Virus record (IMG/VR): IMGVR_UViG_3300009011_000042
Location: 1-32,005 of that record
DNA from: a virus
DNA length: 32,005 nt
Direction: 5' to 3' (one strand)
Shown here: positions 226 to 31,906 of the stretch, piece after piece
How the letters are laid out: each line of letters begins with the position of its first letter
How positions within the stretch are numbered: the stretch's first letter is position 1
Notes under the pieces: model-generated
Seen by the model: the letters and a program-made list of their open reading frames with translations, nothing else
What the model was told of the DNA's origin: nothing
Database searches by the model: none
Program-made: the position numbers and the translations under genes

Positions 226-243
226 ATATAGCACAGGCTATAT
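226..243. promoter_or_regulatory. MntR-type operator at mntS (left box)
   Basis: A perfect palindrome, ATATAGC-ACAG-GCTATAT, lies 58 bp upstream of the mntS start. The ATAGC-N4-GCTAT core resembles the MntR box of enteric mntH/mntS promoters as I remember it. Its right half is part of the att core. On the minus strand a TACAAT -10 candidate (242-247) overlaps it, which fits repression of mntS by Mn-MntR. Confidence 0.75.
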
Positions 244-247
244 TGTA
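237..247. other. attL core (11-bp direct repeat, left copy)
   Basis: GCTATATTGTA is repeated exactly at 31883-31893. The left copy sits about 90 bp from the end of int, where a P2-type attachment site is expected. It contains the right half of the MntR palindrome and the presumed mntS -10 box (TACAAT on the minus strand). Host sequence lies to the left and phage sequence to the right. Confidence 0.8.
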
Positions 248-286
248 AAGCATTAACAATCTACGAAAAACAATAAGTTATATATT

Positions 287-299
287 TATCAATGGGTTG
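287..299 (+). promoter_or_regulatory. IHF binding site, left att arm
   Basis: TATCAATGGGTTG matches the IHF consensus WATCAA-N4-TTR at every defined position. It starts 40 bp inside the core, mirroring an inverted match on the right (31833-31845). IHF bending is a normal part of att complexes of tyrosine integrases. Confidence 0.65.
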
Positions 300-334
300 T
301 GATAGTTAATAAAGGTTAGTATTCGGCAGTATTC

Positions 335-1375
335 CTAAGCTGTCGCGACATTTTTGCGACATTTTAAAGGATTAAGTCGCACGGCATCTTCAAGGTGGCT
401 AGGGGCGAAATGCGCATAACGCATAGTCATGGTGATGTCAGCATGGCCAAGAATTTTTTGCAGAACCAGAATGTTCCCGCCGTTCATCATAAAGTGGCTG
501 GCAAATGTATGGCGCAGAACATGGGTAAGTTGGCCGGAGGGAAGTTGAATTTTCGCACGCTCAAGAGCAGAGCGGAAAGCGTTATAACAGGGCTGCGGAA
601 ACAGAGCGCCTTTCGTGTCAGGCATTTCAGACAGAAGTTCTTCATCAAGGGGGATTGTTCTGTTGCGCTTTCCTTTGGTTTTGATGAACGTGACTTTTCC
701 GCCAGCAACTTGAGAGCTTTTAAGGGTTGCTGCCTCATTCCATCTTGCGCCGGTAGCAAGACAGATTTTCACGACTAGCTCTAAGCTTTTCACTTTGCTT
801 CGTTTGCATTCCAGTAACAGCCGATCAATTTCTTCAGCTGAAAGGAAAGCCATTTCGGATTCATCAGTACGATACTGTCTAACGTTTTCCAAAGGGTTGG
901 GCGCTGACCATTCCCCGATCCGCTTCAGTTCGTTGAACATGGCAAGAAAGTAAGCATGCTCAAGATTCATTGTTTTCGGGGAAACCTTCGAAACTCTGTT
1001 GGTACGAGCATAGTGCCCATCAAGCCTTTTAGCGCGGTATGCCGTGAACAGTTGCGCATTGAACTCTGTAGCCAGCGGGAACCCCATGCATTCTGCCGCC
1101 CAGGTCATAGCGTCTTTACGCTTTTGGCCGTTGCGCAAAGCCACGCCATGGCGTTCGTGCCACATCGTAATTAGGTCGATTAAAGTTCGTTTGTCTTTCC
1201 CTTCACCCAACCATGGTGCACTGTCTACCTTCTGTAGCGTATGGTTTTCAAATGCCAGGGCTTCCCCTTTTGTGGCAAATTTTTTACGTATTCGCTTCCC
1301 GCTCTTGCCATTGCTGCGGTTGACTGTGTAGAAGTCGGCGATCCATTCGCCATGAGGTGTTTTTCTTACTGGCAT
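335..1375 (-). CDS. int: Tyrosine recombinase (P2-type phage integrase)
   Basis: The integrase catalyses site-specific integration and, with Cox, excision of the prophage. The protein has a P2-type N-terminus and core-binding region, then the catalytic domain with ATGAR (near residue 210), HVLRH (H287 and R290 counted from the longer start), LGH (H313) and the nucleophile in MRYAH (Y322). Two starts are possible, at 1381 and 1375. I prefer 1375 (MPVRKTPHGEW) because AAGTGA sits at a proper distance from it, whereas at 1381 that sequence abuts the ATG. About 346 residues is normal for the family. It is the last gene of the leftward operon cI - membrane protein - int. No terminator is visible between its stop and mntS. 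Its last codons carry a tandem arm-type repeat. Confidence 0.96.
   Translation of the reverse strand: MPVRKTPHGEWIADFYTVNRSNGKSGKRIRKKFATKGEALAFENHTLQKVDSAPWLGEGKDKRTLIDLITMWHERHGVALRNGQKRKDAMTWAAECMGFPLATEFNAQLFTAYRAKRLDGHYARTNRVSKVSPKTMNLEHAYFLAMFNELKRIGEWSAPNPLENVRQYRTDESEMAFLSAEEIDRLLLECKRSKVKSLELVVKICLATGARWNEAATLKSSQVAGGKVTFIKTKGKRNRTIPLDEELLSEMPDTKGALFPQPCYNAFRSALERAKIQLPSGQLTHVLRHTFASHFMMNGGNILVLQKILGHADITMTMRYAHFAPSHLEDAVRLNPLKCRKNVATA
346..363 (+). repeat. Arm-type integrase repeat, left copy
   Basis: CGACATTTTTGCGACATT lies in the 3' end of int. Near copies in the same orientation occur at 30067-30084 (17 of 18 identical) and 31776-31793 (15 of 18). It can also be read as a tandem 11-bp unit, (C/T)GCGACATTTT, at 344-354 and 355-365. 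Its position about 100 bp from the core suits an Int arm-binding site; this role is inferred. Confidence 0.6.
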
Positions 1376-1393
1376 AAGCATTCACTTTTGAAA

Positions 1394-2113
1394 TTAATTA
1401 ACAACATTATTTCTTTTTTCTTTAACTAACTTGAGGTTTTCGAATTTAAAAATACAAATTGAGTTATCTTTTAAAGACAGCGCAAAAGCTTTATCTGCCA
1501 TAACATCAATATATCTGTATTTGTCATTTTCGCTACTACTACATAAAGCATTTGATTCGACTAAATAAGTGTTTTCTCCCGCAAGGATTCTATCTCCTTC
1601 TAAGACACCCCGCGAAAGGAAAAAAACAGGCATAAAGCAAAGTATGCTATAAAAAAGAGCTTTGTTTTTGAAAGGAATATATGCCATTAACTCTTGATTT
1701 CTACATGTAGTAAAAAAAACAATCGAAGCCAATATCCAAGCAATGGCAGCATATCGAATCATTTTATTACCTGTAACAAGGTTGTATATTACACTCCCTA
1801 AAAAGAGGCATACCATTATGATTACGTAGCTATATCTTAAAATATAATCAAATTTCTCATGTTTTGACATTTCGGAGTATTTTGCAGATACGTCTGTTCG
1901 CGGACCGTTGTAGTTGTTCATCGCTACCTGAACGAGATACATAGCTAGCGCGATTATCATTGGCCATATTGCTGATTTAATGATATCAGAAACACCTATG
2001 TAATTTAGTATGTTGATATCAAAGCGTCCCCAAAAACCCCAAAGGTAGGATATGCTAATAAACAAGGCATACGCGGTAATCAAGGTACTATTCAGTACGG
2101 TTTTGTTTTCCAT
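1394..2113 (-). CDS. Unrecognised polytopic membrane protein in the lysogeny operon
   Basis: I do not recognise this 239-residue family. Five hydrophobic stretches are visible, near residues 9-31, 44-64, 92-112, 118-138 and 150-170. A soluble tail of about 65 residues follows. The start has a good ribosome site (GAAGGA on the minus strand). The gene lies 23 bp after cI and 18 bp before int on the same strand, so it is probably transcribed with cI in the lysogen. That position is typical of lysogenic conversion or superinfection exclusion genes. Base composition is markedly AT-rich against its phage neighbours, which suggests separate acquisition. Superinfection exclusion is my guess from context only. 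Confidence 0.8.
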   Translation of the reverse strand: MENKTVLNSTLITAYALFISISYLWGFWGRFDINILNYIGVSDIIKSAIWPMIIALAMYLVQVAMNNYNGPRTDVSAKYSEMSKHEKFDYILRYSYVIIMVCLFLGSVIYNLVTGNKMIRYAAIAWILASIVFFTTCRNQELMAYIPFKNKALFYSILCFMPVFFLSRGVLEGDRILAGENTYLVESNALCSSSENDKYRYIDVMADKAFALSLKDNSICIFKFENLKLVKEKRNNVVN

Positions 2114-2136
2114 TCTGTCTATCCTTCAAAAATAAA

Positions 2137-2715
2137 TTATCTTATTTGAAGTACTACCCGCCCAATTATTTTAATGTCGTCAATGCCACAATCAAAAGCC
2201 ATACCAATACCGCTAACTCTTACTTGTTTAATAGGGATTCGTGTAAGAGTTCTAATACTATTTTTACCTTCAATTTCAACAAGCCATTCATCGTCGTAAA
2301 CTTCGGAGAAGTCCTGCTCAATGATATATTGTTGAGAACCTTCGATTACACAGAGTGGGCTTTGGGGTAACGGTTTGCCGGGTAAAAAAGTAACTTTATC
2401 AAGCATTAAAAAGCCAGCGTCATATAATTTTCCATCAACTATTTTCTGGCGTGACATTTTCATAATGTCAAGCTCTTCATCATTGAATTTCTTTCCCTGA
2501 CCCGTTGCAAGCCATTCAAGCGTAGCTCCAGTCTCTGCGATACATCTAACGACAATGTCAGAGGGGAAAAAATCCCTCTTATAACGGTTGGCCAAACTGC
2601 TGCTTGCGATATCAAGATGATTGGCCAAGGCTAGTTTTGATGTGAACCCATAAGCCTGAATGACCCGGTCAAGCACTTCTGATCCACCTTTTGAGAACTC
2701 CAGTTGTAGCTTCAC
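2137..2715 (-). CDS. cI: CI-type phage repressor (186/P2-like)
   Basis: This is the lysogeny repressor. The N-terminal ~75 residues resemble the Phage_CI_repr helix-turn-helix family, with SKLALANHLDIASSSLANR as the probable recognition unit. The C-terminal part (about 100-192) resembles the oligomerisation domain of 186 CI. No Ser/Lys autocleavage pair is evident to me, so induction may need an antirepressor rather than RecA cleavage, as in 186. Length 192 matches the family. Translation starts at a GTG (2713-2715), with AAGG about 10 nt upstream. The gene is divergent from cox, and repeated operator half-sites lie between them (2734-2778). It heads the leftward operon with the membrane protein and int. 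Confidence 0.92.
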   Translation of the reverse strand: MKLQLEFSKGGSEVLDRVIQAYGFTSKLALANHLDIASSSLANRYKRDFFPSDIVVRCIAETGATLEWLATGQGKKFNDEELDIMKMSRQKIVDGKLYDAGFLMLDKVTFLPGKPLPQSPLCVIEGSQQYIIEQDFSEVYDDEWLVEIEGKNSIRTLTRIPIKQVRVSGIGMAFDCGIDDIKIIGRVVLQIR

Positions 2716-2733
2716 GAAAATTTTACCTTGAAT

Positions 2734-2778
2734 TGTAGCTCTGAGTGAGTTTACACTTCGAGCTGTAGCTTTAAGTGA
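2734..2778. promoter_or_regulatory. CI operator cluster and divergent promoters
   Basis: Three copies of a half-site, AGCT-N3-AGTG, lie in the cI-cox gap. TGTAGCTCTGAGTGA (2734-2748) and TGTAGCTTTAAGTGA (2764-2778) are in direct orientation, and CACTTCGAGCT (2754-2764) is inverted between them. Candidate promoters overlap them. Leftward there is a TAAACT -10 (minus strand, 2748-2753). Rightward there is TTGAAT (2728-2733) with TACACT (2752-2757), spacing 18. The arrangement fits a repressor controlling both early promoters. The assignment to CI is inferred from position. Confidence 0.6.
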
Positions 2779-2795
2779 ATATTGCCCGTTACAGA

Positions 2796-2822
2796 CCTGT
2801 ATTGCCGTACAGGTTAACCTGT
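2796..2822. promoter_or_regulatory. Palindromes in the cox leader, one LexA-like
   Basis: Two overlapping dyads precede cox. CCTGTA-N6-TACAGG (2796-2813) contains CTGT-N8-ACAG, the invariant LexA-box core, but its centre is GC-rich. ACAGGTTAACCTGT (2809-2822) is a perfect 14-bp palindrome ending at the cox ribosome site. They could be operators for LexA, Cox or CII, or alternative mRNA hairpins that tune cox translation. Confidence 0.45.
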
Positions 2823-2834
2823 GGAGTTTGCCTT

Positions 2835-3056
2835 ATGCGTCCTAACATTACAATCGTCATCCCAGAGCCATACCTGCCATTAGATGAGTACTGCCGCCGT
2901 ACTGGCACTAACAAAGAAACAGCTAGGAACCTGATTGAATACGGGAAATTGCCTATTAAGCCGAAAGGAAAGCAGAAGAAAGGCCTGATTGAAGTCAACA
3001 TGGCCGCGCTAACCATTCAGGCGTTAAGCGAATGCGATATTTCGCTTAACGCTTAA
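2835..3056 (+). CDS. cox: Cox/Apl-type excisionase and early repressor
   Basis: This 73-residue DNA-binding protein is in the standard P2-group cox position, first gene of the rightward early operon. PYLPLDEYCRRTGTNKETARNLIEYGKLP looks like the winged helix-turn-helix of Phage_Cox proteins, with a basic wing (KPKGKQKKG). These proteins repress the lysogenic promoter and direct excision with Int. I chose the ATG at 2835, preceded by GTGGAG. An in-frame upstream GTG at 2775 would lie inside the operator region and add 20 residues unlike the family. A small inverted repeat (TAATCC/GGATTA, 3054-3072) separates it from cII. Confidence 0.8.
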   Translation: MRPNITIVIPEPYLPLDEYCRRTGTNKETARNLIEYGKLPIKPKGKQKKGLIEVNMAALTIQALSECDISLNA

Positions 3057-3086
3057 TCCATCGTACGGATTAGGGAGAGGCAAACA

Positions 3087-3590
3087 ATGTTTGATTATCA
3101 GACTTCTAAACATGCTCATTTTGATGCAGCTTGCCGAGCGTTTGCGCTGGCGCACAATCTGGAAGATGTAGCCGCTGCCGTTGGTATGCGTCCGCAGATT
3201 CTCCGAAATAAGTTGAATCCGGTTCAACCGCACCGGCTGACCTGCGATGAGCTTTTGGCTATCACCGATTATACCGAAGATGCGCGGTTACTGGATGGGA
3301 TGCTGGGGCAGATTAACTGCCTACCGTCCGTTCCTATCAATAACGCCACTGAAGCCAACATGCAGTTTTGTGCGTTGAGCGCCACCGCAAATGTGGGGGC
3401 AATCGCTGGGGAAGCTGTATCAACTGAGCACATGACAGCGGCACGCCGCACACAAATTCTCGATCGTGCCCGTGATGCTATCCGTTCCCTTTCCGTCCTG
3501 GCTTACACCGTTGAAAGCCGTCTCCACTCTGCGCCGGTTCTCGCTGCTGCCGTCGATATCGTTACTACCAGCGCCAGCGGCATGATGTGA
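3087..3590 (+). CDS. cII: CII-type phage regulatory protein
   Basis: The 167-residue product resembles the CII/CP76 family (Phage_CP76) of 186-like phages, which activates repressor synthesis when lysogeny is established. The N-terminal ~75 residues (HFDAACRAFALAHNLEDVAAAVGM then LRNKLNP) form the DNA-binding region. The rest is helical, with an Ala-rich C-terminus. A strong ribosome site (GGGAGAGG) precedes the ATG. It is second in the early operon, after cox. Length and position match the family. Confidence 0.85.
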   Translation: MFDYQTSKHAHFDAACRAFALAHNLEDVAAAVGMRPQILRNKLNPVQPHRLTCDELLAITDYTEDARLLDGMLGQINCLPSVPINNATEANMQFCALSATANVGAIAGEAVSTEHMTAARRTQILDRARDAIRSLSVLAYTVESRLHSAPVLAAAVDIVTTSASGMM

Positions 3591-3599
3591 GGGATATCC

Positions 3600-3794
3600 A
3601 TGAAAGCTTTTGTTACGTACCTGAAAAAAGAATCTCCAGCCATGCAGCTGCCCAGCGGGTCAACCGGATGGCTTGAGCTGCCAAACGGCCAGCGCTGGAA
3701 CCCTGGCCACCAGTACAAATTCATTGCTCGCTCGTCACGTCGTCCATGGTGGTTTCGTTTGTTCGAGATTATCAGGGGGCGTTATGGCCATTAG
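3600..3794 (+). CDS. Fil-like small protein (DUF2724 type)
   Basis: This is a 64-residue basic protein. MKAFVTYLKKESPAMQLPSGSTGWLELPNGQRW resembles the filamentation (Fil) family of 186, also called DUF2724, in which a short conserved motif around GWLxLPxGxxW is followed by a basic tail. In 186, Fil blocks host cell division. The gene has a ribosome site (GAGGGATATCC), starts 9 bp after cII and overlaps the next gene by 11 bp. The family call is from memory of pattern only. Confidence 0.6.
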   Translation: MKAFVTYLKKESPAMQLPSGSTGWLELPNGQRWNPGHQYKFIARSSRRPWWFRLFEIIRGRYGH

Positions 3795-4212
3795 CTCAAA
3801 ACAGCAGGAGATAGGTCTTAAGTGGCTGGGGAATATCCGCCGCAAATACTGGAGCGAGAAAAGCGAGGCCGCCGAATGGTGGGAAAAATTAACACCAGAA
3901 TGGCGCGGGGTTGTTTTGCATGCGGCCGCAGTTGCTTCCGGGCTGGACGTTTTCAAAGCCCACCTGTGTAAATGCTGTTGTTCTGAGTTATTCGAACGCC
4001 TGGACTACCGGGCAATGATTCAGCTGCGCCAGGGCATATCCAGGGCACGTTTGACGTTTGAAGGGTTCGGTAGTTTGAGTGACAGCGATTTTTCTAAGCG
4101 CAGCGCCAACCGCCAGGTGAAAAAGGCACATCCGATCCACAGCAGTAATGGCGTACAGATGATTATCGCGCCTCATATCGTTCATAAGATGCAACAGCAG
4201 GAGAATCATTAA
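3784..4212 (+). CDS. Early-operon protein of unknown function, Cys-rich centre
   Basis: I do not recognise this 142-residue protein. I chose the ATG at 3784, preceded by GGGGGCG and overlapping the fil-like gene by 11 bp; an open frame extends further upstream but has no ribosome site. Visible features are a Trp-rich N-terminal half (WLGNIRRKYW, AAEWWEKL), a cysteine cluster CKCCC near residues 65-69, and a basic C-terminal region (SANRQVKKAHPIH) with several histidines. The cluster could bind metal. It is tightly coupled to the next gene (TAATG). Confidence 0.7.
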   Translation: MAISSKQQEIGLKWLGNIRRKYWSEKSEAAEWWEKLTPEWRGVVLHAAAVASGLDVFKAHLCKCCCSELFERLDYRAMIQLRQGISRARLTFEGFGSLSDSDFSKRSANRQVKKAHPIHSSNGVQMIIAPHIVHKMQQQENH

Positions 4213-4613
4213 TGTCCATTATCTCTGTAAACGCCAAAGAACTGGGGCAGGAGCTTGCTGCGTGGGGTGTTCCGCATAATTACGCCATTCTCTTTCTGGA
4301 GAAAAGCACCGTTAAAAATGGCCGTGTGGCCTTACATCCATTTTTCTTTAATGACACCGAGCACATGACAAACAAGCGGCACTGGCTGGCCGTAAATGTT
4401 GCTTACTGGTGCTGTGTTTATCGTGAAGCGGTAAGCCCGTTCCAGCAGGTTGAAGCGCTGGCCGGTATTCGTTCCATGTATTACGTCGCGGGATCATTGG
4501 GTGCTGGCGAAATAAAAGCGCTGATCCAGGAGTGGTGGCGCAATACCTACGAGCTGCACAAAGTGCCAGCGCCGAGCTACTCAGCCGCACCCGTTACCGT
4601 CTCTTTCCACTAA
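4212..4613 (+). CDS. Early-operon protein of unknown function
   Basis: This 133-residue protein has no family I recognise. Its ATG overlaps the preceding stop by one base (TAATG), so translation is probably coupled. It appears soluble and globular, with many aromatic residues (HPFFFNDTEHM, WLAVNVAYWCCVY, EWWRNTYEL) and no signal or membrane segment. Its place between regulatory genes and replication genes suggests a role in early takeover or replication; this is inference only. Confidence 0.7.
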   Translation: MSIISVNAKELGQELAAWGVPHNYAILFLEKSTVKNGRVALHPFFFNDTEHMTNKRHWLAVNVAYWCCVYREAVSPFQQVEALAGIRSMYYVAGSLGAGEIKALIQEWWRNTYELHKVPAPSYSAAPVTVSFH

Positions 4614-4635
4614 TTAACTGCCTGAATTTTTGGCT

Positions 4636-4662
4636 ATCCCTGCGGTGGCCGGGGATTCTTTT
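4636..4662 (+). terminator. Possible attenuator hairpin before the DUF2732 gene
   Basis: ATCCC (4636-4640) and GGGAT (4652-4656) flank an 11-nt loop, followed by TCTTTTG. It lies in the only sizeable gap of the early operon (4614-4679). The stem is short, so partial termination or an mRNA stabiliser are both possible. Confidence 0.3.
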
Positions 4663-4679
4663 GTCCTGAGGAAACCAAA

Positions 4680-4913
4680 ATGCAAACAACACGCATGTTT
4701 TTACCCGTCAACCAATCCGGTACTGACCTGCTGGCAATGCTGGCAAAAGCTACTGAGGAAGGAAAAGCGGCCTCCGCCGATCTGTGTTCTGCCCGTCTGG
4801 ATAAGCTGGCCGCATATGCCGCTAACGAAGGTTTAAGCGCTGCCGAAATTGTTGATCTGATCCGTGAAGAGGCTGCGGCCATTTGCAGTAAAGGCGGTGC
4901 AGCATGGCAGTAA
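4680..4913 (+). CDS. DUF2732 family small protein
   Basis: This is a 77-residue helical, alanine-rich protein. LLAMLAKATEEGKAASADLCSARLDKLAAYA followed by LSAAEIVDLIREEA matches the pattern of DUF2732 proteins, found upstream of replication genes in P2-group phages. Function is unknown. A GAGGAAAC ribosome site precedes the ATG. It overlaps the methylase gene by 10 bp. Confidence 0.75.
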   Translation: MQTTRMFLPVNQSGTDLLAMLAKATEEGKAASADLCSARLDKLAAYAANEGLSAAEIVDLIREEAAAICSKGGAAWQ

Positions 4914-5755
4914 AAACCCCTCTTAAATGGGTGGGCAGCAAAGTCCGCCTTATGCCGCAGCTGCGTGACCATTTGCCGGAAGGCAAACGCCTGGTTGAGC
5001 CGTTCGCGGGTTCGTGCGCCGTCATGATGAACACGGACTATGACGAATACCTGATTGCTGATCTGAACCCGGATTTAGTCAATCTGTATAAGGTCATGGC
5101 CTACCATACCGACGCGTTTCTTGTGGAGCTTGAAACCCTGTTTTCTGCCGGGGCGTTGGGTGAACAGGAGAGCCGCGCTATTTTTTACTATGCCGTCCGG
5201 GACGCGTTCAATTTGTCCGGAAAGGGGCATGGAGCGGAAAGCGTTGAAGCCGCTGCCCGTTTCATGTACCTGAACCGCCACTGCTTTAACGGGCTTTGCC
5301 GTTACAACCGCCGTGGCCAGTTCAATGTCCCATTCGGGAAGTACAAGAAAAACTATTTCCCACTAAAAGAAATCCGTGCATTTGCTGAAAAGGCGAAGCG
5401 CGCGACGTTCATCACCGCACATTACTCTGAAACGCTGGCGCTGGTTAGTGCCGGGGATGTGGTCTATTGCGATCCACCGTACCTGACGGAATCAGGCAAT
5501 TTCACCTCATACACAGAAAGCGGCTTTTCACATCTTGATCAGGGGCGACTGGCCAGAAAGCTACGCCGCCTTACTGAGAACGGCGTGAGTGTTGTTGCGT
5601 CAAATAGCGATCTGGAGATGGTGCATTACCTTTACGCCGGATTTGAGGCAGTGAAGGTCAACGCGCCCCGCAGTGTTGGTGCCGCAGCTGCAAGCCAGAA
5701 AACTGCCGCAGAGCTGATCCTGAAATCCCCGTCAGTTGCAAAGGCTCGTGCATGA
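4904..5755 (+). CDS. dam: DNA adenine methylase (Dam/D12 class)
   Basis: This is an N6-adenine DNA methyltransferase of the D12/Dam family, which commonly targets GATC. Visible motifs are the SAM-binding LKWVGSK (residues 7-13), LVEPFAGSCAV (motif I region) and the catalytic DPPY at 190-193. Length 283 is normal. The start overlaps the upstream gene and is preceded by AAAGGCGG. Its stop overlaps gpA (ATGA), so both are translated together. Likely roles are protection from host restriction, or marking replicated DNA or promoters. No cognate restriction gene is present, so it is an orphan methylase. The target sequence is inferred from the family. Confidence 0.9.
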   Translation: MAVKTPLKWVGSKVRLMPQLRDHLPEGKRLVEPFAGSCAVMMNTDYDEYLIADLNPDLVNLYKVMAYHTDAFLVELETLFSAGALGEQESRAIFYYAVRDAFNLSGKGHGAESVEAAARFMYLNRHCFNGLCRYNRRGQFNVPFGKYKKNYFPLKEIRAFAEKAKRATFITAHYSETLALVSAGDVVYCDPPYLTESGNFTSYTESGFSHLDQGRLARKLRRLTENGVSVVASNSDLEMVHYLYAGFEAVKVNAPRSVGAAAASQKTAAELILKSPSVAKARA

Positions 5756-7773
5756 CGCTCGTTGCTAATGGCCAACATCACGCCGTCGATATCTGGCGGC
5801 GTGATACCTTTGCGCCCGGAACGCCAGCGAACGCGACGATCACAGAGCGCCGTTTGTGGGCAGTTAACCCACAGGACTACGAATGGCGTTCACAGTTTCT
5901 TCACGAGATACCGGACTGGTTAGCCGGGTATTTTGGCAACCGTTACGAAAAGCTGTTTGCTGGCCGTGACGGCCGCCGCCGTGCCAATACATTCCTGCGC
6001 AAAACTATCGGTGAGAATGTATTGCCACGTCTGCGGAAAGTGGCTGCGCGTTACCAGCTGGCCGCTGATGTAAGCGATCTCCCATTCGGAAAGTCATTGC
6101 AGCGCTTGCCGTCGCTTGACCGCACCGATCTCAAAAAGCTGTCTGGCCAGATATCTGGCTGGATCGCTCAGATGTTTTATGACTTCACCGACACGCTGAA
6201 GGGAAAACCAAAAGACGAAAGGGAAATGCGCCAGCGCACGCTGAAGGCTTACCGCAACCTTTGTTCGCTTTCCCTCATGCTGAACAATCAGCCGCCGTAC
6301 TGGGCAGAGCATGAAGCCAATGAAGGCCATCTGGAAACCCGAAAGGCGGAGTCCGGTATTTTGCGTCTCATGGCGCCGGAATGGTGGTATCAGCGCCTGA
6401 AGCGTGCCCGTGATCTGCAACGTGAACATCTGGCCATCGCCGTTGGCCAGGTGCAGAAATCTGCCAGCGCCTACGTATCACGTAAAACCCTGGGCGAATG
6501 GATAGAGCAGAAAAAACGAAATCTGGAGTTCTTCAAAAACTTTGATCTGATGGACGAAGAGGGCAACCGTATTGCGCTGGACAGCATGGTACACCGCAGC
6601 GTTGCTAACCCGGCCATTCGTCGCTGTGAACTGATGGTGCGTATGCGCGGGTTTGAAGATATCGCCAATGAACAGGGGCTGGCTGGCGAGTTTTACACAA
6701 TCACTGCGCCTTCACGTTATCACGCGGTACACAGCAAAGGCGGCTTTGTGTCTCAGTGGAACGGATTAAGCCCACGGGACACGCAGCGTTATTTATGCAA
6801 CGTCTGGGCAAAAGCACGCGCGGCGATCTCCCGTGCCGGTATTCATGTTTTTGGTTTTCGCGTGGTGGAGCCTCACCACGACGGGACACCGCACTGGCAT
6901 ATGCTGCTGTTCATGCGTTCGCAAGACGTTGAGGCGGTGCGGGATATTCTTTGCTATCACGCCAGGATTGCCGATTCAGAAGAGCTTCAAACACCCAACG
7001 CACTTAAGGCGCGTTTTCATGTTGAACCTATTGATCCCGCTAAAGGGTCTGCCACGGGCTATATCGCTAAATACATCTCAAAAAATATCGACGGCTTTGC
7101 GCTCGATGGCGAACAGGATGAAGAAACCGGGGAAAACCTGCGTGATATGGCCAAATCCGTATCAGCCTGGGCATCCCGCTGGCGTATTCGTCAGTTTCAG
7201 CAAATTGGTGGTGCGCCAGTGACTGTCTGGCGGGAGCTGCGCCGCCTGGGCGATCAGCGCCTGACTGATAGCCGCATGGATGCGGTGCTGGCGGCGGCAG
7301 ATGTTGGGGACTGGGCTGCCTATACCCAGTTGCAGGGTGGCGCACTGGTTGCGCGTTGTGATCTAGTTGTTCGTCTGGCGTATGAAATCACAGAGCAGGG
7401 TAACGAGTACGCCGAAGATGTTCAGCGTGTGCAGGGTATCTATTCGCCTTTGATCCCGGATTCGGAAGTATGCACCCGTCTGGTCAAGTGGCAGAAGGTT
7501 GCGAAGTTGGCCGAAGCGCCAGCGGAGGCGGGTTTTTCTGGCGGCAGCGCCGCCCCTTGGAGTTCTGTCAATAACTGTACGGAGGGTGGAACCCGGAGAC
7601 GGTTAAAACTGGAACTGAACCAGCGAGGTTTTGCCGGAACGGATGACGAAATCGGCATTCTCAGGCGCGGCGGTGGTCTTAAATTTGGCCGTTCTGCCCT
7701 GATTTACAGACAGGGGCGGTTGCAGGAGAAGCGGAATAATCCGGAAGAGGAACAATGGCCAGGCTGGCAGTGA
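5752..7773 (+). CDS. A: Replication initiation nickase gpA
   Basis: This is the rolling-circle initiator of P2-group phages. It nicks its own origin and stays bound through a tyrosine. The HUH motif is PHWHMLLF (H381, H383), with a paired HH at 375-376. The two active tyrosines are Y437 and Y441 in YIAKYISKNID, as in P2 gpA. At 673 residues it is somewhat shorter than P2 gpA (about 760) but includes the whole catalytic region. It is coupled to dam by an ATGA overlap and ends the early operon. In P2 the origin lies inside the A gene; I could not locate the nick site here. Confidence 0.95.
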   Translation: MTLVANGQHHAVDIWRRDTFAPGTPANATITERRLWAVNPQDYEWRSQFLHEIPDWLAGYFGNRYEKLFAGRDGRRRANTFLRKTIGENVLPRLRKVAARYQLAADVSDLPFGKSLQRLPSLDRTDLKKLSGQISGWIAQMFYDFTDTLKGKPKDEREMRQRTLKAYRNLCSLSLMLNNQPPYWAEHEANEGHLETRKAESGILRLMAPEWWYQRLKRARDLQREHLAIAVGQVQKSASAYVSRKTLGEWIEQKKRNLEFFKNFDLMDEEGNRIALDSMVHRSVANPAIRRCELMVRMRGFEDIANEQGLAGEFYTITAPSRYHAVHSKGGFVSQWNGLSPRDTQRYLCNVWAKARAAISRAGIHVFGFRVVEPHHDGTPHWHMLLFMRSQDVEAVRDILCYHARIADSEELQTPNALKARFHVEPIDPAKGSATGYIAKYISKNIDGFALDGEQDEETGENLRDMAKSVSAWASRWRIRQFQQIGGAPVTVWRELRRLGDQRLTDSRMDAVLAAADVGDWAAYTQLQGGALVARCDLVVRLAYEITEQGNEYAEDVQRVQGIYSPLIPDSEVCTRLVKWQKVAKLAEAPAEAGFSGGSAAPWSSVNNCTEGGTRRRLKLELNQRGFAGTDDEIGILRRGGGLKFGRSALIYRQGRLQEKRNNPEEEQWPGWQ

Positions 7774-7852
7774 TGGCCTGTAAGTGTGTGATATTTAATA
7801 GCAAAGTCATTACTTGAAAGAATAATTATTTCACATATCGTGCTTTTAGGTG

Positions 7853-7872
7853 TACTGTATGTTCGTACAGTA
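7853..7872. promoter_or_regulatory. LexA (SOS) box
   Basis: TACTGTATGTTCGTACAGTA keeps the outer TACTGTAT and TACAGTA of the E. coli LexA consensus, with CTGT-N8-ACAG intact. It is centred about 33 bp before the small ORF at 7896. A TACAGT -10 candidate (7866-7871) lies within it. The gene downstream should therefore be induced by DNA damage, as the antirepressor gene tum is in phage 186. Confidence 0.85.
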
Positions 7873-7895
7873 TTTTGTGATTTTGTGGAGGCTGC

Positions 7896-8345: not shown

Positions 8346-8395
8346 ATTCCGCTCTCCAGCTGTGAAATAATGCCTGGATTTTAGCCTTTTTTGTC

Positions 8396-9448
8396 TCATG
8401 CTGCACCCTTCTCCGTTGTTTCCATTGCAAAATTCAGATGCAGGTGGCGCGGGATTTCCGGATCGCTGTTGATGGCCATCGCCAGGCGGCGCTGAATGGG
8501 CAAGACTTCATTCTTTTTGTAGGTGCGTTCCACCTTTTCCGGGTCGCCCAGTCCGGCAGTGTTCTGCGGAACGATACCCGCCAGCCCGGCCGGGAAGCGG
8601 TGCGCGTTCAGAATGTCCTGGGCGCTGATGTTCTTCACGCTCGCAAACTCATCTTTGGCCGAAATATCCCCCATCTCAATAAACTTGATCGCGTCCCCGT
8701 CGCCGCCAGGGATGTTTACTAGGATGGTGGAGAAGTTGCCGATCCCCTTGCTGTCCCGCAGCTGCTGTTCAATCTCCTCCTCCATTTCGTCCGTCATGCT
8801 GGGGTCACGGGTATACAGAATGCCGCCCGTGTGTGCGCCGTTGTGGTAGTAGCGACGGCGGAAAATGACCGCCTCACTGTTCAGCAGGGCAGAATGAACG
8901 CCGCCGATGTAGTCCGGCAGACCATAGATGTGCTGCTGCGGGTCATACATCTTGATGAAAATGATATCGTCAGGCGGGAACGCCAGCGGCTCACCTTCCT
9001 GTAAAACCACGTAATCCCCTGGCACAGTCTCCGCGTTTTCTTTCTCCTTACGGCGGCGCAGGTAAAGCCCCGGAAGTGGCTGAAGTCCGATCACATCGCC
9101 CCAGCCATTACGGACTTTGGCCAAGGCTATATCCCCGAAAGTCAGGTAATCAAACACAGCGGCTTCGAGCTCGTCGAACGTCAGGCCGCCGCCCTGATAG
9201 TCCGCCGTGACCATGTTTTTACGGGCGTGGATAATCCCGCCGTGCTGGCCGTTCAGGTTGATAAGCTGCGCCAGCGCCAGGCGGTCAATCGGCTGGGTGT
9301 AGTGATCGGCGGCGTTGTCGTACCAGATTTCCCGGTAATCGGTTCCGGTTGTCAGTACCGGTTCCGGCTTGCCGAAGCTGATAATGCTCATTTTTTTGGA
9401 TTTGTCACCGCGCTTCTCGCGTTTCACAAAGCGTTTCTTTTTGCTCAT
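8396..9448 (-). CDS. Q: Portal protein (gpQ family)
   Basis: This is the head-tail connector portal of P2 type. At 350 residues it is close to P2 gpQ (344). It has the characteristic basic start MSKKKRFVKREK, the segment MSIISFGKPEPVL and the conserved motif AHRFPAGLAGI near the C-terminus. The start overlaps the terminase stop (ATGA). It is read leftward, opposite to the capsid genes, as in P2. Confidence 0.95.
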   Translation of the reverse strand: MSKKKRFVKREKRGDKSKKMSIISFGKPEPVLTTGTDYREIWYDNAADHYTQPIDRLALAQLINLNGQHGGIIHARKNMVTADYQGGGLTFDELEAAVFDYLTFGDIALAKVRNGWGDVIGLQPLPGLYLRRRKEKENAETVPGDYVVLQEGEPLAFPPDDIIFIKMYDPQQHIYGLPDYIGGVHSALLNSEAVIFRRRYYHNGAHTGGILYTRDPSMTDEMEEEIEQQLRDSKGIGNFSTILVNIPGGDGDAIKFIEMGDISAKDEFASVKNISAQDILNAHRFPAGLAGIVPQNTAGLGDPEKVERTYKKNEVLPIQRRLAMAINSDPEIPRHLHLNFAMETTEKGAA

Positions 9449-11220: not shown

Positions 11221-11274
11221 AGATTTAATTATGCCGTGGTGCTGATGAAAAAACGGCGGGGTTAATTCGGGGCT

Positions 11275-13269: not shown

Positions 13270-13272
13270 TCA

Positions 13273-14063: not shown

Positions 14064-14072
14064 GGGGGTTCC

Positions 14073-22974: not shown

Positions 22975-22983
22975 GGAGTATTT

Positions 22984-26262: not shown

Positions 26263-26782
26263 CGGCGAAGCCATCCTGCTGAAGAACATGCGCGTTACGG
26301 TTTCCCAGCAATTCCAGGATAAAGACCAGTCCGGCCAGACAAGTGCCACGACAAAATCAGAGCAGGGCATAAAAGGCAAAGAGCTGCGCGTTTCAGGGGA
26401 AATCCCGTATAGAAATCCGGAGATCCTGCGTCGTATCTTTGAGCTGGGCAGCGCGACGGATGCCAGCGGCCAGCGCCAGAAATACCGCGTAGCGCATGAG
26501 GCGGCGCGGGCTGTTAATTTTCGTGAGGCGACGTTTACCGGAACCCTGGACGCGCCGCCGCAGGACGGGCGCATGTCCTGGCTGGTTACGTTCACGCTGA
26601 CCGAACATATCAGCGTGCAGGAAAAACGTGAGGCCAGGGCAAGCGGCAAAACCAAAGCCGTGAAACAAACGGCGGGAAGTGGCAGCGGCCAGAACGGAAG
26701 CCAGGCAGCTGGCGAGGATGAAGAAAAACTGACGTGGTTTGAACGCAAGGTACTCAAGCCCGTAAATGATGCACTGGGATAA
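26234..26782 (+). CDS. HP1-type baseplate protein before the hub-spike
   Basis: 182 residues. The body is beta-rich (NGEAILLKNMRVTVSQQF, GKELRVSGEIPYRNPEI, MSWLVTFTLTEH). The C-terminal region is low-complexity and Ser/Gly/Lys-rich (about 128-155). The start overlaps the previous gene by 29 bp with AAGGAA upstream. It lies directly before the hub-spike gene, so it may link hub and tube, as gp43/gp44-type proteins do in Mu. The function is inferred from order. Confidence 0.7.
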   Translation: MTSNPTLALNGEAILLKNMRVTVSQQFQDKDQSGQTSATTKSEQGIKGKELRVSGEIPYRNPEILRRIFELGSATDASGQRQKYRVAHEAARAVNFREATFTGTLDAPPQDGRMSWLVTFTLTEHISVQEKREARASGKTKAVKQTAGSGSGQNGSQAAGEDEEKLTWFERKVLKPVNDALG

Positions 26783-26784
26783 AA

Positions 26785-28461
26785 ATGAAGCCGATTAAAC
26801 GCCTGTACCTTTCAACGGATGAGATCCACCTGGCTGATGCCAGCCTGGTGCTGGAGCTGAATAGCTGCGGCCGGGGGTTTATTACTGCCGGGACAACGCA
26901 GGACTATACGGGCAAACTGGTGCGTCTCGATGTGGGTTATACCGATCTGGTTTTGCGCTGGTTCACCGGGTATGTGGAGCGCTCGCAACCTGCTGAAAAT
27001 GGTTTCCAGCGGTTGTTTGTTCGTGAGCTGGTCGGCGTTTTTGAACGTCTGTGGCCATGCTCATTCCAGCATCCTACGCTGCGCGATGTAGCCAGCTGGT
27101 TGACGGAGCATAGCGGGCTGACAATCAGTGTACCGGATGCAGAGTATTCAGACCGTCCGATCCCACATTTCACCCATAGCGGTACGGGTTATCAGTTGCT
27201 GGATAATCTGGGTAAAGCTTTTAGCGTTACGGATTACGTCTGGTACCAGCTGCCGGACGGCGGGGTGTATATAGGCGGCGCGGAAAAAGCCCTGTTTGCT
27301 GATCGCCCGATTGAGATCCCCAATGAATTTAACCAGGGGGCGGCTGGCGGGAACTCCATGACGCTTCCCCTGGTGCAGAGCCTGCGCCCCGGGGTGGATC
27401 TGAACGGGGAGAGGGTGACAAAAGTCCACCTGCAAAATGACACGATGGCCGTAACCTGGACGCCTCGCAACCGTGCCACGGGTCAGGCACTCCAGAAAAC
27501 GCCCGTGCAGCGCCAGATTGAAAGCCATTATCCGGAACTGGCATCCGGGATGCACTTACCTAAATTTGCCCGCGTCATGAATCCCGTTGAAGCGGTGAAA
27601 AGCGGTAAATTCTCCGATCCGTTCCGTCCTCGTTATGCGGTTGATGTGCAGCTGTTAGACGCGGACGGCAACCCGGATAAAGACACGCCTGTTTACTCAG
27701 CTGTGCCTCTGCCGGTTCCTATGGCGGGTAACGATTCCGGGATGTTTCAGTTTCCCCCTGAAGGGACGCTGGTTGAAATTGCCTTTACTGGCGGAAGGCC
27801 GGATAAGCCCTTTGTGCGGCAGACCGTGCCGGAGGGAACCAGCTTACCGGATATCCAGCCAGGCGAGCAGCTGCAACAGCAGCGTGCGGAAGTGTCGCAG
27901 CGCGTCACCCAGGCGGGCGACTGGGTGAGGCAGACAGACCAGACGATCAGTGAAATATCTATGGCGCGGATGGTTAAGGCCGATACGGAACAGCGGGAGC
28001 TGGTGAGCCGGGAAACTACCATTAAGGCCACGGATAAAGTTACGGTGCTGGGCACGTCCACACTGATGGCCGGAGCCATTCAGCAGGTATGCACGGGTGA
28101 TTACAGCCAGGCAGTGAATAACCGCGTTGCGAGTATCGGCGGCGATGATGAAACGGACATAGCCGGGAGCCAGACAGTCACCACGGGTAAAGACCTGATT
28201 GAGAAAATTGGGCTGATACGTAAAAGCGTGGCGGCCGTTCAGCAGCAGATTATTGCCCCGGTAGTGTGGATTGGCTCTGGCACCATCAACGTGGCGCAGC
28301 TGATGCTGGACACGCTGGACGTGGTAAAAGAGCTGGCAGAGCAAACGGCAGACCACACGCACAGCAATACGGGAGCACCAACCAACGCGGGAGCCATCCG
28401 GAGCACCGGAGCGAAAGCGGACACGCTGAACGGCAAATACTCCCCGGTGATTGGCAAATAA
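26785..28461 (+). CDS. Fused baseplate hub and spike (gpD-gpV like, VgrG type)
   Basis: 558 residues that appear to join two P2 proteins. About 1-230 resembles the gpD/VgrG hub (VGVFERLWPCSFQHPTLRDV and GTGYQLLDNLGKAFSVTDYVWYQ in outline). About 255-360 is an OB-fold of gpV/gp45 type (KSGKFSDPFRPRYAVDVQLLD, MFQFPPEGTLVEIAF). The rest is repetitive and fits a beta-helix spike. Near the C-terminus, DHTHSNTG gives the H-x-H motif that binds iron at spike tips. It is the last gene of the late operon and is followed by a strong terminator. Confidence 0.85.
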   Translation: MKPIKRLYLSTDEIHLADASLVLELNSCGRGFITAGTTQDYTGKLVRLDVGYTDLVLRWFTGYVERSQPAENGFQRLFVRELVGVFERLWPCSFQHPTLRDVASWLTEHSGLTISVPDAEYSDRPIPHFTHSGTGYQLLDNLGKAFSVTDYVWYQLPDGGVYIGGAEKALFADRPIEIPNEFNQGAAGGNSMTLPLVQSLRPGVDLNGERVTKVHLQNDTMAVTWTPRNRATGQALQKTPVQRQIESHYPELASGMHLPKFARVMNPVEAVKSGKFSDPFRPRYAVDVQLLDADGNPDKDTPVYSAVPLPVPMAGNDSGMFQFPPEGTLVEIAFTGGRPDKPFVRQTVPEGTSLPDIQPGEQLQQQRAEVSQRVTQAGDWVRQTDQTISEISMARMVKADTEQRELVSRETTIKATDKVTVLGTSTLMAGAIQQVCTGDYSQAVNNRVASIGGDDETDIAGSQTVTTGKDLIEKIGLIRKSVAAVQQQIIAPVVWIGSGTINVAQLMLDTLDVVKELAEQTADHTHSNTGAPTNAGAIRSTGAKADTLNGKYSPVIGK

Positions 28462-28478
28462 GCCGTTTAAGACCTGAG

Positions 28479-28499
28479 CCCGCGCAAGCGGGTTTTTTT
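28479..28499 (+). terminator. Late operon terminator
   Basis: CCCGC-GCAA-GCGGG (28479-28492) followed by seven T residues is a strong intrinsic terminator, 17 bp after the last late gene. Confidence 0.9.
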
Positions 28500-28500
28500 A

Positions 28501-29074
28501 TGCCCTTCATCCCCTGCGGGGTGTCTCTTCTCTATCCTCACAAACAGACTTTGCCACGCGCAATCAGTAGCGCTCTGGCGTGTTCCAGCCTTTCAGGCAG
28601 TCAGCGTCACCCTTAAAGCAGATCGTACCCTCAGCAGGGCGCTGGCGCGTCACAGCACGGCAAAAAAAATCTTTCGCAGACAAAAATCGCACTACACCGC
28701 ACCCGCCTGCGGTTTTTGGATCATAAAAATTTTTCAGTTTTATTTTTCTTCAAACCTGACCGCCAGACCGCGCCAGTGCTGACGGCTTTGAGGAAAATCA
28801 GAACTGAAAAGATTGAAAAGATTTTCAGTATTTTCCAGTTTTAAGGATCAAACTAAAATCTTTGAAATAACCTAACCAGCAGAAATATAAAGATATTTTT
28901 GTTTTTTTTGGCCACCTTTGGTGTTATGCACATCATGTATTAATAATTCATGTCTGACTTCTTTGAGGTAGTACTGGTGCGGGTTTGTGCACGAGTACTG
29001 CTCCTACCAAAGATGAAATAAAATGGAATGAAGCAAGTAATTAAACAAAGGGACGTCTAAACTCTAGCTCCTCG
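28501..29074. other. Non-coding stretch, candidate cos region
   Basis: No convincing gene is visible. It contains CCCCTGCGGGG (28511-28521), a second terminator-like hairpin CCGCA-N6-TGCGG with TTTTT (28697-28717), TTTTCAGT repeats (28731-28738 and 28822-28829) with an inverted copy ACTGAAAA (28803-28810), and a long imperfect dyad (28961-29012). In HP1, as I remember it, cos lies between the last late gene and attP, which is this place. The cohesive end itself cannot be identified by eye. Confidence 0.45.
28961..29012. repeat. Long imperfect inverted repeat
   Basis: AGTACT-G-GTGC (28970-28980) pairs with GCAC-G-AGTACT (28989-28999) with one mismatch across an 8-nt loop. The outer flanks CTTTG (28961-28965) and CAAAG (29008-29012) also pair. 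It lies downstream of the leftward cargo gene. No T-run follows on either strand, so it is not a clear terminator. Confidence 0.55.
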
Positions 29075-29965
29075 TCACCCGCGTCTTTTTCTAACCACTT
29101 CTTCCTTATAATTTCCTAAAATGTAACCCCTAATTTCCGAACCTAATTTTTCGCAAACAAATGGGTAGTGAGGATCGGAAAAGTAAAATTGTATATTGCA
29201 ATTGTCAATGAAATCACCTTCCTCATAAAACTCATGCTTTATGACTGGCATGTAATTGTATCTATTCCGATAAATGCCCTGAACGATATTAAATACATGA
29301 ATATCTTCGTAGGTTTTATTGCTGAATTTTTTCAAAAGCATTTTCAAGTCGTTAGAATCTAAAGAAAAGACTTCATCGACTTCCTTCCTGTGCTTTTCGT
29401 CAAATAGTTGAATTATAGCATCTTTATATAATGAATTGATTGTGCAATAAGTATGTTTTTTATCTATTCTATGCTGTGGTAGTATTATTTTGTTTTCAAG
29501 TAATCCCAGAAGTGCATTATTGTGTGATTCCCCGACAGTTGTACCTGACTCAATGGTACAATCATCATCCTTTAATTTTAGTAGTATTTCTTTAGCATCC
29601 GGTGAGTAATCGTTGAAACTTTTCTTAAATAGCTCTACTTTTCGAAGTTCATTTGCCTTTCTAGCTTCTTCTTCTTTTTTTGTTTCACGTTGTTTATTTA
29701 TTGAGTCGATTTTCCTTGTTACAAATTTTATTGCCAAATCGAATGTGTTAAACAGAGTGGCAGATAATAAAGCACCTAATGAGAATCCTATTACAGTTAT
29801 TAATGTTAATGATAATTCATTTGGCAACTTGAAAGGGTTGAGTTTTGGCTCGATAAATACCCAGCAACAAATTATCGAACCAGCGATCATAAGTAGCCTT
29901 AAAGATGACCTAAAGGTTACAAGGTTAGTTAAGTGCGACAATACCGTCGCAATAGGATCAGCCAT
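29075..29965 (-). CDS. SieB-like membrane protein (candidate superinfection exclusion)
   Basis: 296 residues. Two N-terminal membrane helices (about 22-40 and 51-75) are followed by a charged helical linker (RETKKEEEARKANELRK) and a cytoplasmic domain. FNDYSPDAKEILLKLKDD and NNALLGLLENKIILP resemble the pattern of the SieB superinfection exclusion family. SieB proteins of lambda and P22 abort infection by other phages. The gene has a strong ribosome site (GGAGG) and is monocistronic and AT-rich, as expected for a moron gene. The family call rests on layout and a weak motif match; an unrelated two-helix protein is possible. Confidence 0.75.
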   Translation of the reverse strand: MADPIATVLSHLTNLVTFRSSLRLLMIAGSIICCWVFIEPKLNPFKLPNELSLTLITVIGFSLGALLSATLFNTFDLAIKFVTRKIDSINKQRETKKEEEARKANELRKVELFKKSFNDYSPDAKEILLKLKDDDCTIESGTTVGESHNNALLGLLENKIILPQHRIDKKHTYCTINSLYKDAIIQLFDEKHRKEVDEVFSLDSNDLKMLLKKFSNKTYEDIHVFNIVQGIYRNRYNYMPVIKHEFYEEGDFIDNCNIQFYFSDPHYPFVCEKLGSEIRGYILGNYKEEVVRKRRG

Positions 29966-29980
29966 TCTTGCCTCCTTGGT

Positions 29981-30086
29981 TTCATGAACTGTAACAGTTT
30001 ACATCAGTCATCATACGGAAGGGAGATGCAAACCACGTTAATTACTACAGCAAAGTGAGTCTCATACGACACTTTTGCGACATTCA
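29981..30086 (+). repeat. Duplicate phage right-end sequence (copy A)
   Basis: It begins TTCATGAACTG and ends with CGACACTTTTGCGACATT (30067-30084). The same two blocks, and a recognisable TTACT-N4-5-AAGTGA-N-TCT between them, recur in order at 31716-31793. Copy A is longer by about 26 bases. It lies just before the tRNA fragment as copy B lies before attR. It also contains AACTGTAACAGTT (29987-29999), a perfect odd palindrome upstream of the SieB-like gene that may be its operator. Confidence 0.55.
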
Positions 30087-30097
30087 TACTATTAGTG

Positions 30098-30121
30098 AAA
30101 AAAAACCACTCGATTGAGTGG
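30098..30121 (-). terminator. Terminator of the PIN gene and tRNA fragment
   Basis: On the minus strand CCACTC-AATC-GAGTGG is followed by eight T residues, a very strong intrinsic terminator. It lies downstream of the PIN-domain gene and the tRNA-like fragment, and before the promoter of the SieB-like gene. Confidence 0.92.
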
Positions 30122-30153
30122 CTTAATTATATGATTTTAAATCTAAAACTCAA

Positions 30154-30194
30154 TAGCCCAGCTGGGCTTGAACCAGCGACCAAGCGATTATGAG
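30154..30194 (-). tRNA. tRNA-Ile(CAT) 3' fragment (pseudo; relic att site)
   Basis: Read on the minus strand, the fragment starts with the anticodon loop CTCATAA (30188-30194, anticodon CAT). It matches E. coli ileX-type tRNA-Ile2, as I remember it, for 28 consecutive bases, through the variable loop and T-arm (GGTTCAAG), then diverges slightly in the T-stem and acceptor. No D-arm, 5' anticodon stem strand or 5' acceptor strand is present upstream, so it is not a complete tRNA. The 3' end forms AGCCCAGCTGGGCT (30155-30168), a palindrome. Integrases of this class often use the anticodon loop, and their phages carry exactly this 3' part. Confidence 0.75.
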
Positions 30195-30228
30195 TAGAAC
30201 ATTTTCTTTACCTACTCACAATGATTTA

Positions 30229-31632
30229 TTATAGAATATGTTTTAGATATTCATGTCCTTTTTCAATCGTTGATTCCATAATAAAGTTATAAAGTTGTAA
30301 TTCTTTCATAATATTATCTGCTTCTGATATATCATTCACTCCAATCGATGATTGATTTAATATCGATTTGAGTTTGGAACAAAGTATGTCGATTTGTGAT
30401 AAGTTTGTTTTAATATTATTAATAAATCCTGTTAGAGTATCCTGTTCAATATGTTGATTTAACTCTGATTCAAATGTTTGAAGGTCTGACAACAACGACA
30501 AGCATCGGTGTTTTAAACTAGATGCCTCATATAACGATTCGTCAGCACTATTAGTTAGTAAAAATGATGAGGATTTTGAAAAGTTTTTATAAACTTGGTT
30601 AGTCGCAATTTTCTTGAATAAACTTGCGTTGTTTTCGAAGCTTTTTCTTATTAACTCTAGTTTACTTTGCGACCATAATTCCTTATTTTCATCTTCAATA
30701 TATGGCGATGTATTATTAGATAACTCTTCAACCTCTTTTAAAGAGGAGTCGCGTATTTCAATATTTGCAAGGTGCTCTTTTGATTCATGTAAAAAAGTAA
30801 GTTGATTTACTATTTTAAAGTTTTTGACTTGAGCTTTTTCACATATTTCGGTTTTAAGTGAAGCTAAAGCTCCATGTGTTTTCCCTTCATGGATGTACCA
30901 CCAATCTTCTTTGAGGTCATCACATACAAATATTACGTTATGTATGTTATCTGATTTTGATTTTTCTATGATCTCATGCCATAGATAAAGATCTCCATAT
31001 TTTGCTTGAATCTCTACGCCTGAAAAGAAATATGTCTCACTTTTCTTAACATCCATAAAGCCAGGTGGGATTTTATTCTTATAACGCTGTTCACCTTCAG
31101 CATTTATAGCATTTATTTCTTCTGCAGTAGGGGGGGTGCCAACATTATTTCCGATGATTAAGTCGATTTCATCTCTTATAAAATCATGTTGCGATATTTT
31201 TTGTTTGCTTTGAATACGTGGTGTGATTTTATCACGTATGTAATCCTCAATAGGATTTTTAATTTTGTTTTGTAATTCAGATATTTCATCGTTTAAAGAG
31301 TTATAAAGATGTTTTTTAACCCCACCAGAGGATAAAATGTTTTGTGAATGGATTTTTTCTAATTCTTTTTGTATTTTGGTCAAACTGGAAATACTGTCTT
31401 CAATTACTATACGTCGCTTTCTTTGATATTCAAATCCTACTTGAAATGGTATCCAAATTTTTGATGAAATTTCTTTCATTACTTTGATAATGTCTTCTCT
31501 AGTATGATCTTCGCAACGATAGAGATTAAGTAGACAATTAGTATCAAAGACAAATAAGGTTGTATCAGATAACCAAATTTGTCCTAATGATTCGCTTGGG
31601 GTACTGTAGAATCCAGCAAAAGTAGATTTCAA
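30229..31632 (-). CDS. PIN-like domain protein (DUF4935/PIN_8 type), cargo gene
   Basis: 467 residues. The N-terminal domain has the PIN nuclease pattern: LFVFDTNCLLNLYR (D30, N32), a basic helical insert (EYQRKRRIVIEDSISSLTKI), and a distal acidic site, NVIFVCDDLKEDWW, near residue 240. Such PIN_8/DUF4935 proteins are predicted RNases and occur among prophage and defence genes. The C-terminal half (about 290-467) is helical with no recognised domain. Translation starts at TTG (31630-31632) with GGAG 7 nt upstream. The gene is AT-rich and alone on its transcript. No partner antitoxin is adjacent. Anti-phage action is an inference. Confidence 0.8.
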   Translation of the reverse strand: MKSTFAGFYSTPSESLGQIWLSDTTLFVFDTNCLLNLYRCEDHTREDIIKVMKEISSKIWIPFQVGFEYQRKRRIVIEDSISSLTKIQKELEKIHSQNILSSGGVKKHLYNSLNDEISELQNKIKNPIEDYIRDKITPRIQSKQKISQHDFIRDEIDLIIGNNVGTPPTAEEINAINAEGEQRYKNKIPPGFMDVKKSETYFFSGVEIQAKYGDLYLWHEIIEKSKSDNIHNVIFVCDDLKEDWWYIHEGKTHGALASLKTEICEKAQVKNFKIVNQLTFLHESKEHLANIEIRDSSLKEVEELSNNTSPYIEDENKELWSQSKLELIRKSFENNASLFKKIATNQVYKNFSKSSSFLLTNSADESLYEASSLKHRCLSLLSDLQTFESELNQHIEQDTLTGFINNIKTNLSQIDILCSKLKSILNQSSIGVNDISEADNIMKELQLYNFIMESTIEKGHEYLKHIL

Positions 31633-31715
31633 AGTTAAGCTCCGTTTCTCTGAAACATCAGTTATGGAAGCTAATTTAAATCACAGTGCGCAGATTTTCC
31701 AGCATACCCCTTAAC

Positions 31716-31793
31716 TTCATGAACTGATGACTATCACGACATAACCTATTACTTCTGGAAGTGAATCTTTTAGTGCGACAATTTTGAGGCATT
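31716..31793 (+). repeat. Phage right-end sequence (copy B) with arm-type repeat
   Basis: It begins TTCATGAACTG (31716-31726) and ends with CGACAATTTTGAGGCATT (31776-31793), a 15/18 match to the arm repeat in int. It lies 90 bp from the attR core, mirroring the distance on the left. It also holds the upstream region of the PIN gene. Confidence 0.55.
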
Positions 31794-31832
31794 TAATGAT
31801 TTTGGCATTTTATTTATAACTAATTTTTTATT

Positions 31833-31845
31833 TAATGTATTGATT
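31833..31845 (-). promoter_or_regulatory. IHF binding site, right att arm
   Basis: TAATGTATTGATT is a perfect match to the reverse complement of WATCAA-N4-TTR. It ends 38 bp before the attR core, within an AT-rich tract (31796-31880). Confidence 0.65.
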
Positions 31846-31882
31846 TATATGATATAAATTGAATGTTCTATTTTTACATCAA

Positions 31883-31893
31883 GCTATATTGTA
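31883..31893. other. attR core (11-bp direct repeat, right copy)
   Basis: This is an exact copy of GCTATATTGTA at 237-247. To the right is host DNA leading to mntR. Its last base is the first base of the second MntR-type box. Confidence 0.8.
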
Positions 31894-31906
31894 TAGCTAT
31901 GGCTAT
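31893..31906. promoter_or_regulatory. MntR-type operator (right box)
   Basis: ATAGC-TATG-GCTAT has the same core and spacing as the box at 226-243. Without the prophage, the two boxes would be separated by three bases, with centres 19 bp apart, between mntS and mntR. Confidence 0.65.

Follow-up and report, generated by a model that had tools for sequence, protein, structure and literature searches.

The window analysed here, a stretch of 32,005 nucleotides from a viral sequence record (IMG/VR IMGVR_UViG_3300009011_000042), contains a complete-looking 186/P2-like prophage of 31.6 kb that sits between the host genes mntS and mntR. That the phage entered this site by site-specific recombination is strongly supported, and we hold it with very high confidence. 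We favour, with moderate confidence, the broader reading that a double MntR operator serves as the bacterial attachment site, that this specificity arose by a single switch of site, and that the prophage modestly rewires mntS, as phage HK022 does its own neighbour; we infer the part on expression from the layout of the locus. The features on which the argument draws are as follows, in window coordinates.

40 to 168, minus strand: mntS, an intact open reading frame for a 42-residue small protein, identical in the empty relative G240; the E. coli orthologue is annotated as mntS
226 to 243, unstranded: MntR-type box 1, ATATAGC-ACAG-GCTATAT, overlapping the mntS start region
237 to 247, plus strand: att core copy in attL, GCTATATTGTA, an exact repeat that holds the right half of box 1
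242 to 247, minus strand: probable mntS -10 sequence, TACAAT, inside the core
248 to 334, unstranded: phage left arm (P' side), upstream of mntS and in place of the native mntS -35
335 to 1381, minus strand: int, a 186-type tyrosine recombinase (PF00589, PHROG integrase), reading outward toward attL and mntS
1394 to 2113, minus strand: accessory gene for 239 residues between cI and int, without a family match
2137 to 2715, minus strand: CI-like repressor (phrog_4)
2775 to 3056, plus strand: Cox/Apl-like excisionase and repressor (phrog_575)
3087 to 3590, plus strand: CII-like activator (phrog_101)
5752 to 7773, plus strand: GpA-type replication endonuclease (PF05840, phrog_91)
8396 to 9448, minus strand: portal protein (PF04860)
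31883 to 31893, plus strand: att core copy in attR, GCTATATTGTA, an exact repeat
31893 to 31906, unstranded: MntR-type box 2, ATAGC-TATG-GCTAT, intact in attR and adjoining mntR
31909 to 31914, minus strand: probable native mntS -35 sequence, TTAACG, left behind at attR in the lysogen; joining the flanks brings it to a 15-bp spacing from the -10
31919 to 31946, plus strand: probable mntR promoter, TTGTGC-16-TACAAT, which integration leaves untouched
31999 to 32005, plus strand: start of mntR (ATGAACC...), the window ending inside the gene

A scan of the window found the 11-bp sequence GCTATATTGTA exactly twice, at 237-247 and 31883-31893; shuffled windows gave 0.01 expected matches per shuffle, and none of them contained two copies. 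When the flanks are compared, attL and attR are identical over exactly these 11 bp, the identity ending on both sides. Three features fall within the core: box 1 contributes its right half, box 2 its first base, and the mntS strand TACAAT (247-242). Joining the flanks with one core kept gives GATATAGCACAGGCTATATTGTATAGCTATGGCTATTTCG, in which the centres of the two boxes lie 19 bp apart. In the lysogen the boxes are parted by about 31.6 kb (~32,000 bases), box 1 (226-243) staying with mntS and box 2 (31893-31906) with mntR. The original prediction had given both core copies, the 19-bp spacing, the half box and probable -10 sequence inside the core, and the division of the boxes between the two host genes, and each of these agrees with the positions found.

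The joined site, with a single core in an empty mntS-mntR gap, had been expected in prophage-free relatives, and this is where it was found. In G240, a prophage-free member of the host family, a 176-bp joined sequence was matched end to end at 99% identity, with an identical MntS before it and an intact 157-residue protein of the MntR/DtxR family after it; most relatives with a match also have the empty site. For E. coli, 5391 of 5426 genomes gave a match, the gap being uninterrupted in 5362 of the 5391 and interrupted in 29. The genomes in which the match to the left end of the window runs into the phage arm likewise number 29, as many as the split ones, and the empty and occupied sites of E. 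coli have the same joint, with the core GCTATATTATA. This E. coli version of the core lies at both junctions in strain LH13-b, where the annotated order is opgE, mntS, integrase, the remainder of a P2-like prophage, mntR and ybiR.

Occupied sites were also found outside E. coli. The GTDB species collection gave a single match, Buttiauxella sp. A111, whose attR lies at a distance of 33 kb, and in the scan of the host family the junction is present in 2 of 392 genomes; another lysogen is G208, in which the prophage has shrunk. A third match to the pattern in the family scan, in G061, was set aside as chance, having neither an integrase nor mntS alongside. In IMG/VR, the phage arm followed by the core occurs in 24 records, 23 of which run on into mntS; a degenerate scan of the same collection for attR gave no matches, and the record ends that were read stop in the phage, short of mntR.

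The gene content of the prophage (integrase, CI, Cox/Apl-like, CII-like, GpA, portal and tail genes) places it among the 186/P2-like phages (Peduoviridae). CI is read leftward, Cox/Apl and CII rightward, a GpA nuclease is present, and portal and terminase are on one strand with the capsid genes on the opposite one. The head, tail and lysis module extends to about 28.5 kb in the window, and the gene order matches that of the LH13-b prophage. The integrase has the tyrosine integrase pattern R...HxxR...H...Y, with the motifs GARWNE, HVLRHT, LGHAD and MRYAHF, and is 60.9% identical to the Int of coliphage 186. The likeness to 186 extends to the order cI, cox/apl, cII and gpA and to an att-arm geometry as in the relatives that use a tRNA site; unlike in phages of the 186/Eganvirus type, the tail module includes a DUF2586 protein.

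Integrases at least 82% identical to that of the window all adjoin mntS, except one from an attP record described below. None of those at most 76% identical is at mntS, and every readable site among them is a segment of tRNA-Ile with anticodon CAT, an identity taken from the E. coli annotation. A maximum-likelihood tree built from 57 integrases places the mntS-site group in one clade with a support of 100/100, and the attP record falls inside it. Nearest outside the clade are tRNA-Ile(CAT) prophages (L007-L009, L017, L029 and L038) with integrases 70-76% identical, whose site is the segment of the tRNA gene from the anticodon loop to the 3' end; ARAGORN gave no complete tRNA at these loci, where just the 3' half is present at the int end. 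Between the two groups the attL arms can be aligned and share their geometry, the mntS core taking the place of the anticodon-loop sequence CTCATAATCGC. The single clade and the aligned arms argue for one switch from the tRNA site to the operator site; they point to an mntS-site clade that arose once from 186-type users of tRNA-Ile(CAT), one very conserved target apparently having been exchanged for another. Whereas the 186-type relatives in the records searched are at tRNA-Ile(CAT), the mntS clade is at the operator, with an 11-bp core, and the mntS-mntR operator constitutes a new attachment specificity within a known phage family. Among 50,697 phage records no integrase is closer than about 75% and the att arm is absent, and the open-access papers that pair mntS, mntR or rybA with prophages do not describe the site. 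The expectation that no described phage uses it is thus borne out for these records and for the open-access literature, in which the coverage of P2-like integrase surveys is incomplete.

The one clade member that does not adjoin mntS comes from IMG/VR record G296 (L001, 29624 bases). It begins with 30 right-arm bases, followed by the core and then the left arm, and it ends with its own first 41 bases, the terminal overlap stopping exactly at the core GCTATATTATA. Since this 41-bp overlap joins right arm, core and left arm, the record is closed at attP. When a short stretch is compared, its right arm and the attR arm of E. coli SC477 are 91% alike. The source could be an excised circle or a tandem prophage. 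A reading of L001 and L086 as a secondary integration site was rejected, as the flank is the phage right arm and the record closes on itself at the core, making it attP.

Both MntR-type boxes of the joined site, put forward earlier, show conservation. An alignment of 78 distinct empty sites of the host family has near-invariant half-sites in each box, the varying parts being the 4-bp dyad spacers and one core position. Conserved half-sites with varying spacers are as expected for two operators, which argues that box 2 is real and not a coincidence; from its conservation and symmetry we infer that it binds MntR. At the place of the mntS -10, most empty and occupied sites have TANAAT. The core and the next four host bases form a near-invariant inverted repeat, GCTATA-TTN-TATAGC, built from the two halves that face each other, the right one of box 1 and the left one of box 2, with GCTATATTNTAAAGC as its counterpart in attP; its symmetry suggests that it is likely a pair of core-binding half-sites for the integrase. 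The ninth core base differs by host (G, A, T or C). Among the lysogens with both ends read (the window, E. coli LH13-b, Buttiauxella and G208) it is the same in attL and attR, as expected if the base lies in the strand-exchange region. In the favoured reading we picture a 186/P2-like temperate phage whose integrase would use as attB the double MntR operator that separates the divergent genes mntS and mntR, binding the inner half-sites of both boxes (GCTATA-TTN-TATAGC) and exchanging strands inside the 11-bp core GCTATATTNTA.

Integration leaves the two open reading frames and the two boxes whole, together with the mntR promoter and the mntS -10; in all lysogens where mntS was read as far as its end, the gene is complete. 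The mntS -35 and the whole region upstream of it are exchanged for phage DNA. The native -35 candidate, TTAACG, has a 15-bp spacer and matches at four of six positions in most sites; the candidate in the phage arm, TTTTCG/A, has a 16-bp spacer and mostly three matches, rarely four, while the -10 sequence (TATAAT/TACAAT) stays in place. As the native -35 is itself weak and the phage gives a near substitute, a large loss of promoter strength is not certain. The claim that the prophage replaces the mntS -35 region therefore stands as to the DNA, but with four native matches against three in the phage it perhaps matters less than had been supposed.

A second possible route to altered expression runs through the integrase gene, which points outward at mntS; a search of the minus strand between them (248-334) gave no intrinsic terminator. 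In phage 186, CI and integrase are made from one lysogenic operon (PMC8538670), which makes some read-through into mntS plausible in the lysogen. MntR represses mntS (PMC4361602, PMC9806134). Loss of MntS weakens manganese use, and its overproduction makes E. coli manganese-sensitive (PMC4361602), so even modest read-through could matter; it might also be stopped by Rho, or by MntR at box 1. The prophage places mntS directly downstream of the lysogenic cI-x-int string, and most likely mntS would lose part of its native promoter and of its two-box control and gain some phage read-through, with Mn-MntR at box 1 still opposing. Rewiring of mntS regulation by the prophage is plausible on this analysis and probably modest.

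The closest precedent for such an effect is phage HK022, which with its relatives likewise inserts in the regulatory gap of two divergent control genes, torS and torT of E. coli; there too, int reads outward and is the final phage gene next to a host gene with a replaced promoter region (PMC6814406). There, a transcript leaving the int end reads through into torS and rewires it (PMC6814406). HK022 is a lambdoid phage with demonstrated read-through into torS, whereas the mntS-site phage is P2/186-like, sits in the operator of a metal repressor and has a predicted effect. Attachment sites that overlap a transcriptional control region are also found in elements of the KplE1/P4 type (PMC2951348, PMC7498355); the controlled gene there is the phage's own int, and here the operator belongs to the host.

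A serious rival, to which we give an appreciable but smaller probability, is that the operator is a neutral landing site, chosen for its near-invariance as tRNA genes are, and that lysogeny leaves mntS, mntR and manganese without meaningful change. The att site is among the most conserved parts of the mntS-mntR intergenic region, the related integrases use an equally conserved tRNA, and the survival of boxes, reading frames, mntS -10 and mntR promoter, with mntS intact in the fully read lysogens, fits such a use well. It accounts less readily for the separation of the boxes and the swap of the mntS -35 with everything upstream, and the demonstrable effect of HK022 on its neighbour, from the same outward-int layout (PMC6814406), speaks against it. 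It is improbable, in our estimate, that Mn-MntR competes with the integrase for the shared half-sites, so that low manganese would favour integration and perhaps excision too. The core and adjoining bases do coincide with the inner half-sites of both boxes, and with box 1 overlapping attL and box 2 attR, MntR could cover both prophage ends; however, integration requires only brief access, and many phages integrate into bound or transcribed DNA. We regard with the same doubt the fuller version, in which the integrase reads the operator of a metalloregulator, lysogeny and excision are coupled to manganese through competition with Mn-MntR, and the prophage resets mntS. An artefact of assembly or chance, in which the repeat would be a coincidence and the two flanks unconnected, has a negligible probability: the repeat is only 11 bp of AT-rich sequence, but empty and occupied sites occur in many independent genomes, complete E. 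coli chromosomes among them, and the empty site of G240 with the 29 complete E. coli lysogens already refutes it.

With the double operator as attachment site, the P2/186 family gains a new site, and one clade offers a clean example of a switch from a tRNA gene to the operator of a repressor. Nearly all E. coli and many relatives have the site unoccupied, which would make tests in isogenic lysogens easy. As both excess and loss of MntS alter manganese handling (PMC4361602), the system may show how prophages rewire metal homeostasis; it also bears on whether a bound repressor can gate phage integration.

Several minor observations concern the ends of these prophages. The mntR end is a probable accessory slot: the window has a gene for 467 residues with a PIN_8 domain there (PF18476; 30229-31632, minus strand), for which PADLOC gave no match, and the accessory genes at this end differ between lysogens (a serine acetyltransferase, a reverse-transcriptase (RT) domain, DUF6338). 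E. coli 160-11H1 has a gene with a reverse-transcriptase domain near mntR. At the other end, a P-loop NTPase occupies in the LH13-b prophage the slot of the window's 239-residue gene (1394-2113), and accessory genes lie between int and att in several of the prophages at the tRNA site. The prophages of 160-11H1 (L110, 1056-10090) and G208 (L187, about 1400-7650) are shrunken and defective, at the same site; most lytic genes are lost, with mntS and mntR still parted.

Partial matches of 30 bp in G214, G287, G104 and others were rejected as lysogens, being MntR-type boxes beside another gene. In the more distant relatives G214, G287, G104 and G292 (L211-L214) the same MntR-type box stands upstream of a gene that begins with a signal peptide resembling MntS, probably sitA, and box 2 is weaker there. 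The layout of these four loci agrees with the proposal that MntS derives from a SitA signal peptide.
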